Source: Calditrichota bacterium
GTDB lineage: Bacteria > Calditrichota > Calditrichia > Calditrichales > Calditrichaceae
Direction: 5' to 3'
NCBI GenBank assembly: GCA_024278715.1
Contig: JAJRSN010000229.1
Span: 1 to 38,447, forward strand
Length of the DNA: 38,447 nt
Shown here: piece after piece, positions 5,187-17,337 of the stretch
Numbering within the stretch: the first letter of the stretch is position 1
Layout: each line of letters opens with the position of its first letter
Position numbers and translations under genes: made by a program
The notes under the pieces: model-generated
Told to the model about the DNA's origin: nothing
Seen by the model: only the letters and a program-made list of their open reading frames with translations
The model's database searches: none

Positions 5187-5724
5187 GTAACAGAAAAATT
5201 GTGGGATACCTTTTTGATATTCATTGCGATGATTTTGCATTATGTGTAAATATTTCCGCAAAAAGCTATGAAAAAACCGTTTGCGGATCAGATGAAATTC
5301 AACGGGTTTATTTTGCGCCAATCTCATAAAATTTTGATTAAAAGTTTGAATTTTCGTTTTCGGGCAAAGTCTCCGGCTTTTTCGGAAGTGTGATGCAATC
5401 AATATTTCCCGTTTTGGGGTAAAAGACAAAGCGATTTTTCCTGAATTGCTGTGGCGCTTAATTTACAATATTTATCGTCATAAGTCCCTTGTTACATTTC
5501 TAATAAAGTTTTATTCTTTTGCTAACTTTTTATTGCTATTATTTGCAAATGATTTTCAATATTATTATACTTAAATACCGCTATCTAAGATTTGAAAATA
5601 AAATTATTATGCGTGAAAAGACAGTAAATATTCAAAATGGTAAGATTCCCTATATCTTGTCAAGACTCTTTTACCGATTTTGTTTAAATTAAGAATCTAT
5701 TTTAAAACCCGATTAGGAGGCGTT

Positions 5725-7470
5725 ATGCGGAAAACTCTATTTTTATTTTTAGTGGCGTTACTGCCTGTGGCTCTTTTTGCTCAGGCGAGCGATTTATTCA
5801 TTTCCGAGTATATTGAAGGAAGCAGTAATAACAAGGCGTTGGAAATTTTTAACGGAACAGGCAGTCCGGTTGATCTGTCCGTTTATGAGGTGTGGATTAT
5901 CAGCAACGGCGGGAACTGGGCTGAAAAAACCATCAGTTTAAGCGGAACCGTTAACGACGGGGATGTGTATGTGGTTGCCAACAGTTCGGCGGATGCCGCA
6001 ATTTTAAATGAGGCGGATCTAACCACAGGAAGCGCGTCATGGAACGGAGATGACGCCGTGGGTCTGGCAAAAAACGGAACGTTAATTGACGAAGTAGGCG
6101 AGGAGGGCGCGGATCCGGGAACGGGATGGGACGTAGCGGGCGTAACCAACGCCACGGCTAACCATACCTTGATTCGTAAATCCGATATTACTTCGGGATC
6201 GACCGACTGGGCGGCTTCAGCCGGAACCAACGCTGATAACTCGCAATGGATAGTTCATGATCAGGACTATTTTACGGATTTGGGACAGCACACCTTTAAT
6301 CCCTCTAACAATACCACCGTTCAGTTTGCTTCTTCAGCCGCCTCGGTTAATGAAGGCGACGGAACGTACGATCTTGTGGTAACCATTTCTAATCCTGATG
6401 CCACAAACGCTACAACTGCGGATGTCGTTCTGATTTCCGGTGATCCGGCGGATTTAGGCAATTACACCACTCAAACGGTAACCTTTCCCGCAGGAAGTTC
6501 GGATAATCAGATTGTAACAATTACCATTACCGATGATTCCGAATTAGAGGGGGATGAAGATTTTACCTTTGAGCTTCAGAATGTCAGCGGCGGAAATAGC
6601 GCAACCACAGGTTCGCCCTCGCAGTTTGTGTTAACGGTGATTGATAATGAAACCCCGGCAGTGCCCGACATTGTAATCAACGAAATCATGCAAAATCCCA
6701 ATGCTGTGGCTGATAGTGATGGCGAATGGTTCGAATTGTACAACAATGACAGCCAGGCGGTGGATATTAACGGCTGGACGATCAAGGATGACGGAAGCGA
6801 TTCGCATTTAATAGATAACGGCGGTCCGTTGACCATTGATCCGGGCGATTACCTCGTGCTTGGCATTAACGGAGATCAGGCTACTAACGGCGGCGTGGTT
6901 GTGGATTATGTTTACAGCGGATTTACGCTTGCCAACGGCGCGGATGAAGTCGTTTTAATATACAGCGACGGCACAACCGAGGTGGATAGGGTCAATTATG
7001 ACGGAGGAACCACTTTCCCCGATCCCACGGGCGCATCCATGGAATTAAAGAATCCCGGAATGGATAATAATGCGGGCGCTAATTGGGGAGAAGCTCTGTC
7101 CCCTTACGGCGACGGCGATTTAGGCAGCCCCGGAGCGCAGAACAGTATTTTTGTAAGTGTGATTGAAGACAATCCCGTTCTTTCGAGTGACAGCTATCAA
7201 ATTTTTCCGAATTATCCGAATCCCTTCAACCCTTCAACTACAATACGAATCAGCGTTCCTCAACAAACCGCTGATGTTCAGGTTTTGATTTATGACGTTA
7301 CCGGTAAGAAAATCCGCACCTTGTTTAACGGAACGATAAATAAAGGAGCTCACGAGTTTAAATGGAACGGATTTAATGACTTTGGGAGCATGGTTTCCAC
7401 GGGCGTTTATTTTGCGCTTCTGAAAACAAAGAATGCCTCAAAATCCGTCAAAATGATGCTTTTACGTTAA
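5725..7470 (+). CDS. Secreted protein: signal peptide, two lamin-tail-domain (LTD)-like segments, Calx-beta-like domain, C-terminal FlgD-Ig/T9SS-type sorting domain
   Basis: ATG 5725 after AGGAGG. MRKTLFLFLVALLPVALFAQ signal; LFISEYIEGSSNNKALEIFNGT and IVINEIMQNPNAVADSDGEWFELYNN (LTD); VQFASSAASVNEGDGTYDLVVTISNP...DDSELEGDEDFTFEL (Calx-beta); FPNYPNPFNPSTTIRISVPQ...GVYFALLKTKNASKSVKMMLLR. Confidence 0.88.
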   Translation: MRKTLFLFLVALLPVALFAQASDLFISEYIEGSSNNKALEIFNGTGSPVDLSVYEVWIISNGGNWAEKTISLSGTVNDGDVYVVANSSADAAILNEADLTTGSASWNGDDAVGLAKNGTLIDEVGEEGADPGTGWDVAGVTNATANHTLIRKSDITSGSTDWAASAGTNADNSQWIVHDQDYFTDLGQHTFNPSNNTTVQFASSAASVNEGDGTYDLVVTISNPDATNATTADVVLISGDPADLGNYTTQTVTFPAGSSDNQIVTITITDDSELEGDEDFTFELQNVSGGNSATTGSPSQFVLTVIDNETPAVPDIVINEIMQNPNAVADSDGEWFELYNNDSQAVDINGWTIKDDGSDSHLIDNGGPLTIDPGDYLVLGINGDQATNGGVVVDYVYSGFTLANGADEVVLIYSDGTTEVDRVNYDGGTTFPDPTGASMELKNPGMDNNAGANWGEALSPYGDGDLGSPGAQNSIFVSVIEDNPVLSSDSYQIFPNYPNPFNPSTTIRISVPQQTADVQVLIYDVTGKKIRTLFNGTINKGAHEFKWNGFNDFGSMVSTGVYFALLKTKNASKSVKMMLLR

Positions 7471-7726: not shown

Positions 7727-9061
7727 ATGAAAAAAATCGGATTTTTATATCTATTACTGATATGGGTTGGTTTTTCTGTAGCTCAGACGATTTTTTTGAG
7801 CGATGACTTTGAAGATGGCGATATCTCAGACTGGAAACAAATTCCCGACAGTAATTGGGTCGCCAGTTCTGACGGGGCAATTACAGGCAGTTTTTCACTT
7901 AAACACGCCTTAAACGACACGGCGGCAAGCAGTCACATTACTAAGCCTTTGGTGAATCTTAATGTTGATTCGGAGATTACAACCTGGCGGTTCAATTTAA
8001 AAAACGGAACATTTGATCCGAGCGGCGCCAATAAATTCTGGGTGTATCTTATGGTTCATGATACTACCCATGTAAACGGATATGCGGTGGGCGTAAATTT
8101 ATCGGGTGAGACCGATAGCCTTTCTCTCTGGCGATTAACAAACAGTCAGGCAGATACGATACTCCTTACTACTTCTTTTGATTGGGGACCCGATGACCTG
8201 GTGGGAATCGAAGTAACCCGCGATTCTTCGGGCGTTTGGGAATTAAAATATGACGCTAACGGAAACTTTGACAATTTAATTAGCGCGGGAGCCGTAAAAG
8301 ACACGGTATATACTGCGGCTAACTATTTCGGAATGTCGTTTTATTTTAAAACAGCCGAAGCGGGAAACCTCTGGTTAGACGATGTATTGATTAAGCAGGG
8401 TACGCGGGTTAATGTTGCGACGAAGGCGTTTTTGCAAGGCGCTTTCAACGCGGATACAATGCGCACAACTCTGGTAAGTCAGGATTTCATGCCAAACGGA
8501 CAACCGTTTAACACCTCTCCGTGGAATTATAACGGCGATGAAATCGTTTTAAATTTTCCGACGGATGTTGTGGACTGGATACAGGTGCAATTAAGAACTT
8601 CCACGGATTCTGCCTCTACCGTTGCAACACGCGCAGCCTTTATTCGTAAAGACGGAATGATTACGGACCTGGACGGATACAGTCCGGTTAGTTTTTCGGG
8701 GATTGCAGACGGTTCTTATTACGTAGTATTGCGGCACAGAAATCATTTAGCCTTGATGACCGCTAACCCGGTGAGCTTATCCGCGGAAACGACTCTGTAC
8801 GATTTTAGTACGGCTCAAAGTCAGGCTTACGGGGCAAACGCACAGGTAGAATTAACAACCGGCGTGTTCGGGATGCCGACTGGCGACGCCAACGCCAACG
8901 GACAGGTCCAGAATGACGATAAAAACGACTTCTGGAAACCGCAGTTGGGAACAGCCGGATATCGATCGGCGGATTTCAATTTGAACGGACAGGTGCAAAA
9001 TGATGACAAAAATGATTTTTGGAAGGGAAACTTGGGCTTAGGCACTCAGGTTCCCAATTAA
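7727..9061 (+). CDS. Secreted protein: ConA-like/lectin-like N-terminal domain plus C-terminal dockerin-like double calcium-binding repeat
   Basis: ATG after TTTTGGAGG. Signal peptide MKKIGFLYLLLIWVGFSVAQ; IFLSDDFEDGDISDWKQ (lectin-like start); C-term GDANANGQVQNDDKNDFWKPQLG + ADFNLNGQVQNDDKNDFWKGNLG resembling duplicated DxNxDGxVxxxD loops. Confidence 0.8.
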   Translation: MKKIGFLYLLLIWVGFSVAQTIFLSDDFEDGDISDWKQIPDSNWVASSDGAITGSFSLKHALNDTAASSHITKPLVNLNVDSEITTWRFNLKNGTFDPSGANKFWVYLMVHDTTHVNGYAVGVNLSGETDSLSLWRLTNSQADTILLTTSFDWGPDDLVGIEVTRDSSGVWELKYDANGNFDNLISAGAVKDTVYTAANYFGMSFYFKTAEAGNLWLDDVLIKQGTRVNVATKAFLQGAFNADTMRTTLVSQDFMPNGQPFNTSPWNYNGDEIVLNFPTDVVDWIQVQLRTSTDSASTVATRAAFIRKDGMITDLDGYSPVSFSGIADGSYYVVLRHRNHLALMTANPVSLSAETTLYDFSTAQSQAYGANAQVELTTGVFGMPTGDANANGQVQNDDKNDFWKPQLGTAGYRSADFNLNGQVQNDDKNDFWKGNLGLGTQVPN

Positions 9062-9107
9062 AAAAGAGTTAAGTTCTTAGTAACTAACATAAATTAAGGA
9101 GAATATG

Positions 9108-9986
9108 ATGAAAACGATAAAGATATTATTGATTTTTTTGTTCGGGTTACAAATAAGCTATGGGACAAGCCTTACCTTCACATTTTCAAATGGCATAGTG
9201 ACCAACAATGGCGTAAAAAAATATGAATTTGATGTGATGGTAAGCGCCAGCGATGACACAACGCATCTTGGCGATGCTTTGGTCTATATTAATTACAACA
9301 CGCTGGGCTTTGGCTCTTCTGTTGTCGCCAACAGTAAAATAACCGTGGACAAGGGCACGCTGATTCAGGGAGAATTGGTGGCAGGCTTACCTTTGTATGA
9401 AATCAGCAATATTTCGGATAATACTTCATCCCGTTTTGCCGTCGGAATAGGATATAAATACAGCGACAGCCCGACTGCCGCCAACCTTGTAACAACTTCG
9501 CCGGAGCAGTTGCTTCACATTACTATTGAAATTATGGATTCAACCCAAACCGCGGGTCTGAGTTTCGAACAAACATTAATGGAAGGACAACAGTATAAAT
9601 CGGATAATGCTACCAAATATTCGCCCATTATTGCTACCGACACGGATGACAGTCCTTTGAAGACGAATCCGAGCGACATCACAAGAGACGGACAATTTTT
9701 GCCCGATAAATTTCAGTTGTACAACAATTTCCCTAATCCGTTCAACCCGAGCACCACGCTTAAATTTGACTTGCCGAAAAGTACGGCGAATGTTCAACTG
9801 GTGATTTACGATATTTTGGGCAGAAGAATAGCCACGCTTTTTTCAGGCGATTTAACGGCGGGTCGTTATTCTTACCTCTGGAACGGCAGAAATCAATTTG
9901 GGAATGCGATGCCGAGCGGCGTTTATTTCGCAACTTTTAAAGCCGGTAATTATTCCAGAACGATTAAAATGATGCTGGTGAAGTAA
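9108..9986 (+). CDS. Secreted protein: cohesin-like beta-sandwich domain plus C-terminal FlgD-Ig/T9SS-type sorting domain
   Basis: Start is ATGATG (9105 or 9108) after AAGGAG. KYEFDVMVSASDDTTHLGDALVYINYNTLGFGSS...ITVDKGTLIQGEL...FAVGIGYKYS...LLHITIEIMD resembles a cohesin-like fold; LYNNFPNPFNPSTTLKFDLPKS...GVYFATFKAGNYSRTIKMMLVK is the sorting domain. Confidence 0.75.
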   Translation: MKTIKILLIFLFGLQISYGTSLTFTFSNGIVTNNGVKKYEFDVMVSASDDTTHLGDALVYINYNTLGFGSSVVANSKITVDKGTLIQGELVAGLPLYEISNISDNTSSRFAVGIGYKYSDSPTAANLVTTSPEQLLHITIEIMDSTQTAGLSFEQTLMEGQQYKSDNATKYSPIIATDTDDSPLKTNPSDITRDGQFLPDKFQLYNNFPNPFNPSTTLKFDLPKSTANVQLVIYDILGRRIATLFSGDLTAGRYSYLWNGRNQFGNAMPSGVYFATFKAGNYSRTIKMMLVK

Positions 9987-12663: not shown

Positions 12664-15600
12664 TTATTTTATTTTAATCATTTTCCGGACTTTTGAAAAT
12701 TGCACCTGACGTGTGGATTTATCGCGGACGACAAGGCGATAAAAATAAATGCCCGACGCCTGTCCGAGATTATTGTTGTTGTTTCCGCTCCAGGTTTTGC
12801 GGTGAACGCCGCTGCCCAAAAGCTGATTATCGACAAGAGTTGTTATTTTTTGTCCGAGAATATTAAAAATAGTTAGCTCGACCCAGGCGGGATCTTTTAA
12901 TCCGAATTCAATTTTCGTCATGGGATTAAAGGGATTGGGATAGTTGGGTTTTAAGTAAAATTTTTCGGGAATTTGATCCGGTTTCGAAGTAATACCACTT
13001 ACTATCTCAAGATGCAGAGTATCCATTTCTCCGGTGTGTTTGGCGTTACCCAGCGGTTGATTCCAGTACAAAACGGTGGATGAGGAATATTTTTGCGGGG
13101 CATCCCAGATCAACAAAACGCCTTCGTGGTTAACCGTTAATACTTCCAAATCCCCGTCGGAATCAATATCGTCAACAACGGGTGAATGAGCCTTGACCAT
13201 ATCGTTCTTTGTGTATAAGGGAAAACCGGCAACCTCGTTTCCGTCAAGTGAGCTTAAGGCGTGAATATAACCGAAGGTATCCAGATAGATGATCTCCTGA
13301 ATACCATCCTGATTAATATCGGCTAAAACAGGGCTGTTGTACGGTGAAAGGATTTCCCAGTTTCCGGCAAAGAAACCGTCTCCGTTGTTAATGGGTTTGG
13401 GCCATCCCTCCATTAACTGCCCGTTATTTTTGAATATGTACACATTATTGCGTCCCACATAGATGATTTCCAGATCGGCATCCTGATCGACATTTCCGAT
13501 AATTGCCGGCGAGCTGTGTCCGTAAGGATCGGTTAGTTTGCATTCCTTGCCCCCTTCCCAGCCGGGAAAGAAATCGCCTTTGTAATCGAGCACATAAAGG
13601 CGGTCGGTTTTAACTATGGGCAATACGATTTCAAGTAAGCCGTCGTTATTCAAGTCAGCCAAACTTAAAGGAGATTCGAGATAGCCGGAGAAAGATTTTA
13701 TCCAGACCGGGTTCGGCGAGCTGTCCGGTTTAAAACAGAATAATTTACCGCCCTGCGTGGGAACGATTACGGATAATTCTCCGCTATCATCCAGGTCGGC
13801 TACCGCCACATTCCCAAGCGAGGTGCGGTCGTCAAACATAAAACCTTCGGAGGGCCAATCTTTGAATGACTTAAGGAATCCGCTGCTGTCGGTTAAAATA
13901 AACAAACGACTGTTTTTGGGAGGATGAGGAGCATTGCCGGCATGGGTAAGCACAATAATTTCATCAAATCCGTCATGATCCAGATCGGAGAGAACGACAG
14001 GAGACGGCGCGTTGTATTGCAAATCGAATTGAGAAAGCAATTGCCCGTTTTTTCCATTGATCACATAGATATTATTCAGAGGTTGACCTTCTCTGAAGCT
14101 TGAAACCACGATTTCATGTTTGGATAAACCGTTGACATTACCGACAGCCGGGAAAGTCAGGTCGCCTTCCAAATCGTTTAATTTGAATAACAGAGTTCCG
14201 TTCGAATCATAAACGTGTAACTGTCCGTTGCCGCCGGAAGCGATCAGCTCTTTTTTCCCGTCGCCGTTCAAATCAAAAGAAGTGACTCCGCTTACTTCCG
14301 ATCCGATGGCTTTTACATTGGGACGAACAGGAAAGCCGTACTGAGGGGGAAGAGCGGACCATGCCCGGATTGTATCCGCCGTGGCACTAAAATTACCGGA
14401 TGAATCCACGGTTCTGATGGAATAATAATAAGGCAAGTTGCTATCCACCTGATTATCAATAAAATATCCGGCATTTTTTAACGGATTTTGCGTGATTCTG
14501 TAGAATTCGGTTTCAGGACTTTCGGAGCGATAGATGTGATAACCGTAAACGTCGTTATCGGCGGAGGGTTTCCAGGTTAGCAGAATCCCTTCGGCTCTGT
14601 CGGGGCGGAAGGAGAAGGAAGGCGGGGGCGACGGTGCTGTAAAATCAATCGGATACTCCCATTGATTGCCGGAATAATCGTTCAGAATTAATTTTAAATG
14701 AATATCGGAAAGTTCTTCGCGATGTTCGATAATAAATTCCTGTTCAAATTCAGCGGTGGTTTGGGGTGAAAGCCGGGGCATTGAAAGTTGATCCTGAACA
14801 ACTTGCGCAAGAGGATCTGCAGAGATCAATCGCGCCTTAATATCGGAAGCTTTTCCCCGTCCGGTGTTGCTAATATTCAGATGAACGGTGGTATAATAGA
14901 GTTTTCCGAGAGTTGTATCTGTCAGTATGGTCTGGTGGGTTTGCGAGAAAACGGTTAATCGCGGAACATAAATATTGAAGCTTGTGTTTTCGGCAAGCTG
15001 TTGTTCCGCGGGCGACGTCAATTCCGCCCTGAGCACCAATGTTGTGTCAACAGTAATTCCACCGGCTATGGTGAGATTAAAGGGACCAAAGGTAACCGTA
15101 TCTTCGGGTAGAACCGATTGGCTTAAAACGGCAAGGCTGTCTTTTAAGTAAAACAGAGATGAAAATTTGTGCAGAGCAATTTGTGTTCCGGGCTGCCAGG
15201 TTTTAACGCCGGTGTTTTTCCATTTCAAATACAGGGCAAATTCTTCGTTAGGCTCGCATTGATTGTTTTGGTTTCCGTTGATTTCCTTAAAACGCGTACT
15301 TAGTAATTTTCCCGCAAAATCATTGGAAGCGGTCAGATTCAAAATTTTTTCAGATGGACGGTAATTTCGGGTAGAGACTGTGAGAAAGACACTGTCTGTG
15401 TTGACGTTTGTAAGGTCAAAAGAAGAAACACCCGTCTCTGAAGTCCGCTGAATTCGATACAATTGATCCTTTTTGTACAACACAACGGTAGCTTGAGGAA
15501 GCGGTGAATCGGTGGAGTCGTTAAGCACAGTGACATTCAGCCAGCGTTTACCGTTTTTAGTTACGATTTGATCTTCTATTTTGAAATTTTGAACTCGGTC

Positions 15601-17337
15601 TGTCCAGATTGGCATTTCGGGGTCGCCTAAGACCAAGGTGGAGTACACAATTATTCGCGAAGGTCCTTCGAAGTTCAGATAACCCAGATAGGGCAATCTG
15701 GAAAGATAATGCGCTTCAGATAGATGATAATAACCTTTGTTAAAAGCTAAGTTAAAGAATTCTTTTTCCAGGTAAATGCCGCTAAAAGGATATTCCCAGC
15801 TTGAATTTCCGATGTAAGCGACGCCTCCGCCGGTTTTACTGAGAATATATTCTTCGCCGAAGCACCGTTTAAGAATATCATTGGTGTAGCAGCTTGCCAT
15901 GTACCAGATGGGGGGATCGGGAGTAGTCAATTGCTCCATATTATAGTTATAGAGATCCGAGCCGCGGGCGCCAGGACGAATGGTGTAATAGAGTCCGTGG
16001 GTTTCGGTGAAAATCAATCCGTATCCTTTGTTCAATTCGTCGAGTGTTACCTGGGGGTCGCTACCGATATTTTCGGACTGAGTAATAAGTGTGCGTTTAA
16101 ATATCGGATTAATTTGAGGATCGATATGTTTGAGAATTAGCTGATCCCGGCTGTCGTTTTCTTTTTGCAGGTTAGCGGCGATATACAACACATTAGCCGG
16201 ATAGTCGCTTGAATTGACGGAATCGAGTTTTTCGTATTGGAACAATTTGGTAACAAAACGGTCGGCATCTTCCGGCGTCATTGCAGGAATTCGAGCGACG
16301 TAAACTTCGGGATAACCTTGGACTTTATCGGGCGCTTCGCCAAAGGTGTCATCCTGATCGGCATTCCAGGTACCGTCAAGGTCGGCAAAGTAATAATCGG
16401 CGGCAAAGGTAAAATTACCGGTGTGAATAATTCGGGTTGGAATAAGTTCCGTATCACCGGCAAGCAATACATATCGTGTACCGCGTTTTGTGTATGACCA
16501 GCGAATGAAATTGCGCATTCGTTCGGCGTCATCGACACCATTGGGGAAGTTTTGGCGAATCCAGGAGAGGGTGCGAATCACGGTGGGGACGCCGCGGCGG
16601 GTTTTCCATTCGGCAAGGGGCTGTAATGACGGTTTCAAGGATTCGGCGGTGATAATGACATAGCGATCGATCAATCCGCTGGCGAGCAATTGGGGATCGA
16701 TTTCATCGGTGCTTGCGGGTAATTTAAATTTGCCGGAGGGTTTTATTTCGTTTTTCGGGTTCAAAAGAGCATCGACAATTTTACTGTCTTCCTGTAATAA
16801 CGGCTGGACGCCCATCTCGGTAGAAATTTCGGTTTGAATTTGGAACTCAATACTTTTAATAAAACGTATTTTTTGTTCGGCGGGTATGTATTGAAACGGC
16901 GAAATGGCAAAATGGGCAATAGGTTTGCCGTTGAAATATTGAATTCCCAAATATTGTACGCTTTGTTGCGGATAGGGCTGGGAATTTTGATAGATCTCGG
17001 GATCGGGTTCGATAAACACATCATTGCCGAATTGTGTCCAGGGCTTTTGGCGGGGAATAATGTTGAACTCGCCCGCAAGGTACTGATAATCCGTATTTGT
17101 TATTCGAAATGATTTGACTTTTATTCCGGGTTCCAGCACGAAACGATAAATATAAAACGGCAGGTCGGGAACGCCTAATTCCGGATTCAATGCGGAGAGA
17201 TTTACCTTTCCGCGATACTCCAAACGATCGAACAAACCGTCTTTTTGTATAGTAATAAGTTCCGAATGATGTTCAAGTTTAATCGTTTGCGCCTGCAGAA
17301 ACGAAAATCCGAGTAAGACAATAAAAATCCATCGCAT
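12664..17337 (-). CDS. C25 (gingipain-family) peptidase, multidomain secreted: propeptide, C25 catalytic domain, CARDB-like region, FN3, FG-GAP-type repeats, C-terminal FlgD-Ig/T9SS-type sorting domain
   Basis: 1557 aa. RYVIITAESLKPSLQPLAEWKTRRGVPT, YVLLAGDTELIPTR, PEVYVARIPAMTPEDADRFVTKLFQYEK, IFTETHG (His, 15997-15999), WYMASCYTN (Cys, 15890-15892); FDLNGDGKKELIASGGNGQLHVYD / DLDHDGFDEIIVL / DLNNDGLLEIVLP; YPNPFNPMTKIEFGLKDPAWVELTIFNILGQKITTL. Confidence 0.92.
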   Translation of the reverse strand: MRWIFIVLLGFSFLQAQTIKLEHHSELITIQKDGLFDRLEYRGKVNLSALNPELGVPDLPFYIYRFVLEPGIKVKSFRITNTDYQYLAGEFNIIPRQKPWTQFGNDVFIEPDPEIYQNSQPYPQQSVQYLGIQYFNGKPIAHFAISPFQYIPAEQKIRFIKSIEFQIQTEISTEMGVQPLLQEDSKIVDALLNPKNEIKPSGKFKLPASTDEIDPQLLASGLIDRYVIITAESLKPSLQPLAEWKTRRGVPTVIRTLSWIRQNFPNGVDDAERMRNFIRWSYTKRGTRYVLLAGDTELIPTRIIHTGNFTFAADYYFADLDGTWNADQDDTFGEAPDKVQGYPEVYVARIPAMTPEDADRFVTKLFQYEKLDSVNSSDYPANVLYIAANLQKENDSRDQLILKHIDPQINPIFKRTLITQSENIGSDPQVTLDELNKGYGLIFTETHGLYYTIRPGARGSDLYNYNMEQLTTPDPPIWYMASCYTNDILKRCFGEEYILSKTGGGVAYIGNSSWEYPFSGIYLEKEFFNLAFNKGYYHLSEAHYLSRLPYLGYLNFEGPSRIIVYSTLVLGDPEMPIWTDRVQNFKIEDQIVTKNGKRWLNVTVLNDSTDSPLPQATVVLYKKDQLYRIQRTSETGVSSFDLTNVNTDSVFLTVSTRNYRPSEKILNLTASNDFAGKLLSTRFKEINGNQNNQCEPNEEFALYLKWKNTGVKTWQPGTQIALHKFSSLFYLKDSLAVLSQSVLPEDTVTFGPFNLTIAGGITVDTTLVLRAELTSPAEQQLAENTSFNIYVPRLTVFSQTHQTILTDTTLGKLYYTTVHLNISNTGRGKASDIKARLISADPLAQVVQDQLSMPRLSPQTTAEFEQEFIIEHREELSDIHLKLILNDYSGNQWEYPIDFTAPSPPPSFSFRPDRAEGILLTWKPSADNDVYGYHIYRSESPETEFYRITQNPLKNAGYFIDNQVDSNLPYYYSIRTVDSSGNFSATADTIRAWSALPPQYGFPVRPNVKAIGSEVSGVTSFDLNGDGKKELIASGGNGQLHVYDSNGTLLFKLNDLEGDLTFPAVGNVNGLSKHEIVVSSFREGQPLNNIYVINGKNGQLLSQFDLQYNAPSPVVLSDLDHDGFDEIIVLTHAGNAPHPPKNSRLFILTDSSGFLKSFKDWPSEGFMFDDRTSLGNVAVADLDDSGELSVIVPTQGGKLFCFKPDSSPNPVWIKSFSGYLESPLSLADLNNDGLLEIVLPIVKTDRLYVLDYKGDFFPGWEGGKECKLTDPYGHSSPAIIGNVDQDADLEIIYVGRNNVYIFKNNGQLMEGWPKPINNGDGFFAGNWEILSPYNSPVLADINQDGIQEIIYLDTFGYIHALSSLDGNEVAGFPLYTKNDMVKAHSPVVDDIDSDGDLEVLTVNHEGVLLIWDAPQKYSSSTVLYWNQPLGNAKHTGEMDTLHLEIVSGITSKPDQIPEKFYLKPNYPNPFNPMTKIEFGLKDPAWVELTIFNILGQKITTLVDNQLLGSGVHRKTWSGNNNNNLGQASGIYFYRLVVRDKSTRQVQFSKVRKMIKIK

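Follow-up and report, generated by a model that had tools for sequence, protein, structure and literature searches.

A protein held at a surface protein through its C-terminal dockerin is known from the clostridial type II cohesin/X-module-dockerin system, in which the X-dockerin of CipA pairs with SdbA (PDB 2b59, 3kcp), and a 2009 study reportedly described non-cellulosomal cohesin and dockerin modules from many taxa. In Candidatus Stygibacter (Cloacimonadota), a cellulosome-like complex has been predicted in silico, with dockerin-bearing enzymes and a cohesin scaffoldin carrying a C-terminal domain (CTD) of the type IX secretion system (T9SS) for surface attachment (PMC8542988). This scaffoldin of 3,755 amino acids (aa), with tandem cohesins and carbohydrate-binding modules (CBM), was found via InterPro domains in one genus (PMC8542988). 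The general idea is therefore not new. Here we describe two adjacent genes, A and B, on a contig of a Calditrichota bacterium (JAJRSN010000229.1, positions 1 to 38,447, all of it referred to as the window). They have in common with the clostridial pair a predicted cohesin fold, a C-terminal X-like module followed by a dockerin, and the proposed anchoring of the dockerin protein to a surface protein. We consider it likely that A and B are a non-cellulosomal cohesin-dockerin pair in which B is a surface anchor holding A.

In the list of open reading frames (ORFs) of the window, A encodes 444 aa and B 293 aa, with 43 nucleotides (nt) from the stop of A to the start of B (Table 1). The C-terminal end of A (...GDANANGQVQNDDKNDFWKPQLGTAGYRSADFNLNGQVQNDDKNDFWKGNLGLGTQVPN) contains two 12-residue loops, both with D1, N3, N5, G6, and D12. 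In an alignment of 51 diverse relatives, both loops have D1 in 51/51 sequences, D12 is present in 50/51 and 49/51, respectively, and positions 3 and 5 are N, D, or S in nearly all of them. The AlphaFold2 model of A has helices at residues 396-406 and 425-435 of this region. When the PDB was searched with the A5 family profile, the top match was the dockerin 2vn5_B (E=7.6e-4), followed by 2vn6, 2b59, 2mte, and 1daq. Dockerins make up most of the 22 matches and align to profile positions 161-219, with X-dockerins aligning from position 150. One relative also exceeds the cut-off of the Pfam model Dockerin_1 (PF00404; 27.6 vs 22.9). The two F-hand loops and the sequence relation to known dockerins identify the C-terminus of A as a putative dockerin. 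Both of its repeats contain NGQVQNDDKNDFW. In type I dockerins, internal symmetry of this kind is associated with dual binding modes, and by analogy the repeat symmetry suggests that the dockerin of A may have them as well. The module lies 0-5 residues from the C-terminus in 107 of 152 matches. Lys/Arg-rich tails follow the dockerin in some A proteins (L032, L063 of genome G031, L123, and L134; e.g. ...RKKAKVKSGRKLRDFPKKKKEVEDQ).

Searches with single proteins against Pfam, NCBIfam, and PDB sequences gave neither a cohesin nor a dockerin, and only family profiles and structure revealed them. In B, Pfam and NCBIfam show nothing beyond the FlgD-Ig/T9SS type A sorting domain. A PDB sequence-profile search with B found no cohesin likeness, and hhalign gave no convincing match between the B profile and cohesins encoded in the same genome. 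With the AlphaFold2 model of the ortholog at locus L081 as query, Foldseek gave 34 PDB matches at E<=0.001, every one of them a cohesin, so that the modelled domain of B has a cohesin fold. A weak bridge in sequence is provided by a protein of locus L234, which matches both Pfam Cohesin (E=0.015) and the B profile (E=0.001). The C-terminal domain of B scores above the curated cut-offs of FlgD_ig (PF13860; 44.9 bits, cut-off 27) and of TIGR04183 Por_Secre_tail (36.4 bits, cut-off 23), and the genome encodes the T9SS pore SprA (SprA_N, E=4.5e-31). Judged from its sorting domain and this secretion system, B would be a T9SS type A substrate. The initial annotation of the window had read a double calcium-loop dockerin and no sorting domain in the first protein, and a cohesin-like domain followed by a FlgD-Ig/T9SS-type end in the second. 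All four features are borne out, the cohesin likeness being clear at the fold level although invisible to Pfam PF00963 and to the PDB sequence-profile search.

The relative placement of the two proteins was predicted with the L081 orthologs, chosen because their A and B are in the same reading frame and only one stop codon separates them. This stop was read as glycine, the signal peptide of B thus became a linker, and the pair was modelled by AlphaFold2 as one chain with an alignment of 75 rows. The resulting artificial pseudo-complex, with halves of 222 and 165 residues, reached a mean predicted local distance difference test (pLDDT) value of 93.3 and a predicted template modelling score (pTM) of 0.89; linker residues 232-248 are disordered, with pLDDT below 50. 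By simple arithmetic, a pTM near 0.55 would be expected for halves of these sizes left unplaced. The two halves of the ortholog pair are therefore confidently predicted to be placed against each other.

The genomic arrangement is conserved. Among 21 genomes of the order Calditrichales, 8 have A and 9 have B, and in 8/8 genomes holding A, B follows directly on the same strand with a gap of 0-43 nt. The flanking genes mostly differ among the loci, the gene upstream of the pair in the window recurring only in L077 (71% identical); the pair thus stays together while its surroundings change. Over 40 genomes of the phylum, A was detected in 13, B in 10, and both in 9. One genome (G031) has 19 proteins with the A module, plus two B genes beside short A. 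The genome of the window (4.0 Mb) has a single copy each of the A module and the B domain. Elsewhere in it, on contig C496 (L001-L004), T9SS-type proteins carry canonical Pfam cohesins and an adjacent canonical dockerin, and the window pair is therefore a second, diverged system.

Scanning GTDB with the A module yielded at least 77 loci, distributed over Calditrichota, Bacteroidota, Cloacimonadota, and KSB1 (counts from this large scan are lower bounds). One of the 77 is labelled Thiotrichaceae and may be a binning error. The loci were picked by A alone, and 55/55 B ORFs in them lie on the strand of A. Among 109 A ORFs, the next gene is B in 39 cases and another A in 21, and A is fused to B in one chain in 4. 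In 396 Bacteroidota genomes, B was found in 8 and A in 53. A is present in 8/8 B-positive genomes vs 45/388 of the remaining ones (Fisher p=6e-8), so that B implies A, and not the reverse. At the A-positive, B-less Bacteroidota loci that were examined (n=20), a T9SS sorting domain is frequent in the gene next to A. The gene adjoining A has an outright Pfam Cohesin (33.8 bits) with Por_Secre_tail in one bacteroidote (L230), and it has a sorting domain and a weak Pfam Cohesin in L234. At eight loci (L222-L225, L232, L236, L239, L241), a conserved sorting-domain protein of 430-470 aa, family B', lies directly downstream of a single A-type protein of 700-830 aa.

The division of domains between the partners is also maintained, with a T9SS sorting domain in 13/14 complete B proteins and in 0/13 A proteins scanned. 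In other genomes, the proteins bearing the A module include M36 and M12B-type peptidases as well as repeat proteins. Natural A+B fusions (L098, L109, L112) have an internal A module, followed by the B domain and the sorting domain. Further variants include tandem B proteins (L083, L102), chains combining a B-like cohesin with the A dockerin module (L069:12459-13811 on the minus strand, L065:6031-7455 on the plus strand), and B domains on long Bact_surface_Ig-like repeat stalks (L118, L127). These variants recall cellulosomal scaffoldins, adaptors, and stalked anchors, respectively.

We propose that B enters the periplasm via its signal peptide, would be exported through the T9SS by its C-terminal sorting domain, and would then be held at the cell surface. 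There, its cohesin would bind the C-terminal part of A, made up of the X-like module and the dockerin loaded with Ca2+, and would thereby keep A, which has no sorting domain of its own, at the surface. A could cross the outer membrane in company with B, or it could take a different route and be captured afterwards. The T9SS transports folded proteins, and its passengers fold in the periplasm (PMC9251779); A could therefore travel bound to B. That the two proteins assemble in the periplasm and then pass the T9SS pore as a folded complex, with A carried along by the sorting domain of B, is a possible but rather doubtful extension. If it were true, one anchor gene could export and display many dockerin-tagged proteins.

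Several observations weigh against B as the anchor of A. In the window, A is below the cut-off of Dockerin_1 (PF00404), and B has no match to Pfam Cohesin (PF00963), either in the protein scan or at its locus in the whole-genome search; PF00963 is a detection model and not a definition of the cohesin fold. The support from the co-fold consists of the pLDDT and pTM of one ortholog pair, which shares 60% and 54% identity with the proteins of the window, and the window pair itself is not the chain that was folded. In the ninth B-positive genome of the order (G010), B is near a contig edge with no A visible and with another sorting-domain gene before it. No B was detectable in 45/53 A-positive Bacteroidota genomes, and hhalign did not link the N-terminal domain of B' to cohesins; this domain is possibly another diverged cohesin. 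The many A-positive Bacteroidota without detectable B would also fit a different role for the C-terminal module of A, namely a secretion or sorting signal of a new T9SS type or of another system, in which case B would simply be a further surface protein encoded in the operon, and the two would not bind each other. Such signals are located, as this module is in most relatives, at the extreme C-terminus, and A shows no export signal beyond its signal peptide. However, the module is an X-dockerin by sequence, the co-fold sets it confidently against B, it is internal in L098, L109, and L112, where it precedes the B domain and the sorting domain, and long basic tails extend beyond the dockerin in some A proteins, which makes a sorting signal improbable in our view.

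Binding could also take place in the periplasm or serve as an assembly step without surface display of A, B being for instance a carrier that releases A. This explanation draws on the absence of a sorting domain in A, whose final location is hence not set by its sequence, and on the periplasmic folding of T9SS passengers (PMC9251779). It appears quite unlikely in view of the full type A sorting domain on B and of the relatives in which B domains sit on long surface-type repeat proteins (L118, L127) or in tandem (L083), as surface anchors would. Surface anchoring of A by B thus remains our preferred reading. The docking of the first protein by the second, as suggested in the initial annotation, is supported by the cohesin fold, by the high pTM of the single-chain L081 co-fold, and by the co-occurrence of the two families, which are adjacent in all A-bearing Calditrichales genomes and with A present in all B-positive Bacteroidota; physical docking, calcium dependence, and a surface location are its predictions. 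Neither of the outcomes that the annotation had named as refuting, lack of a cohesin fold together with a poorly scored interface or lack of co-occurrence, was obtained. Its description as a cellulosome-like attachment reduced to two genes has to be replaced, as the pair is instead the minimal version of a broader family linked to the T9SS, in which one genome may encode as many as 19 A-type proteins.

Table 1. Features of genes A and B, with positions in the window.
Feature	Position	Strand	Basis
Gene A, secreted dockerin-bearing protein without T9SS sorting domain	7727..9061	+	ORF; no Pfam/NCBIfam sorting domain; kept in 8 Calditrichales genomes
Signal peptide of A, MKKIGFLYLLLIWVGFSVAQ	7727..7786	+	By eye; AQ/GQ-T boundary conserved in alignment A1
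ConA-like lectin/glucanase jelly-roll domain of A	7787..8398	+	AlphaFold2 model of A; Foldseek
Beta-rich module of A before the dockerin, at the X-module position of X-dockerin dyads	8399..8878	+	A3/A5 profiles cover module plus dockerin; pLDDT mostly >90
Putative dockerin, duplicated F-hand calcium-loop/helix segments, extreme C-terminus	8882..9058	+	Loop conservation; profile matches to PDB dockerins; helices 396-406, 425-435
Calcium loop 1, DANANGQVQNDD	8885..8920	+	Loop conservation
Calcium loop 2, DFNLNGQVQNDD	8972..9007	+	Loop conservation
Gene B, predicted anchor with a cohesin fold and a T9SS type A sorting domain	9105..9986	+	ORF; conserved position immediately after A
Signal peptide of B, MMKTIKILLIFLFGLQISYG	9105..9164	+	By eye; alignment A2
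Predicted cohesin-fold domain of B	9165..9671	+	AlphaFold2 of ortholog L081; Foldseek
T9SS type A C-terminal sorting domain of B, FlgD-Ig-like	9729..9983	+	TIGR04183; PF13860

No significant domain was found in A with Pfam or NCBIfam, including any T9SS sorting domain or, in Pfam, a recognised cellulase domain. Modelled alone by AlphaFold2, A has a pLDDT of 84.6. The Foldseek matches of its N-terminal jelly roll comprise calreticulin, ERGIC-53, VIP36, L-type lectins, GH131, and Cip1, with TM-scores of 0.5-0.6 for calreticulin and single-domain lectins. The modelled fold, similar to that of concanavalin A (ConA), fits the early description of the protein as lectin-like and is one that does not distinguish a lectin from an enzyme. 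A is probably a glycan-binding or glycan-cleaving protein. A likeness to the receptor-binding domains of clostridial neurotoxins, also returned by Foldseek, was rejected because the TM-score is about 0.3 with a root-mean-square deviation of 17-19 Å over multi-domain alignments; what is common is the generic jelly-roll fold.

Just upstream of A, a gene at 5680-7470 (+) encodes a protein with lamin-tail, Calx-beta, and T9SS sorting domains, found beside the pair elsewhere only in L077. Another gene, at 12664-17337 (-), encodes a C25 peptidase that resembles gingipains and has FG-GAP repeats and a C-terminal domain of the T9SS type. Neighbouring genes for an extracytoplasmic function (ECF) sigma factor and an anti-sigma factor were considered as regulators, but the surrounding genes for the most part do not accompany the pair in relatives.

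Taken together, these proteins probably constitute a divergent cohesin-dockerin family that lies outside cellulosomes, is linked to the T9SS, and occurs in Calditrichota, Bacteroidota, Cloacimonadota, and KSB1. No description of the divergent family, its adjacent two-gene T9SS-anchored form, or its spread was found in the literature searched, which covered few subscription journals. Most scanned members miss the Pfam cohesin and dockerin models, and the distribution over at least four phyla suggests that a widespread means of attaching proteins to the cell surface has been overlooked. It could hold at the surface proteins without a sorting domain, such as lectin-like proteins and M36 and M12B peptidases. 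It also makes the outer-membrane crossing of such proteins directly testable and offers new candidate binding pairs for protein display.

Regarding known systems, a reading of the locus as a cellulosome was rejected because it comprises a single pair with one cohesin in B and no cellulases; the multi-cohesin scaffoldin, CBM, and cellulases of a cellulosome were not found. The clostridial cellulosome is anchored by S-layer homology domains or sortase, whereas here the anchor would be a T9SS sorting domain, and the window sequences, unlike the clostridial ones, fall below Pfam thresholds. Compared with gingipain-type T9SS type A substrates, B has the same sorting domain and would instead anchor a second protein lacking one. 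Likened by description and not by sequence, the system of Ca. Stygibacter is a large scaffoldin of one genus, in contrast to the two-gene cassettes of a divergent family distributed over several phyla that we describe here.
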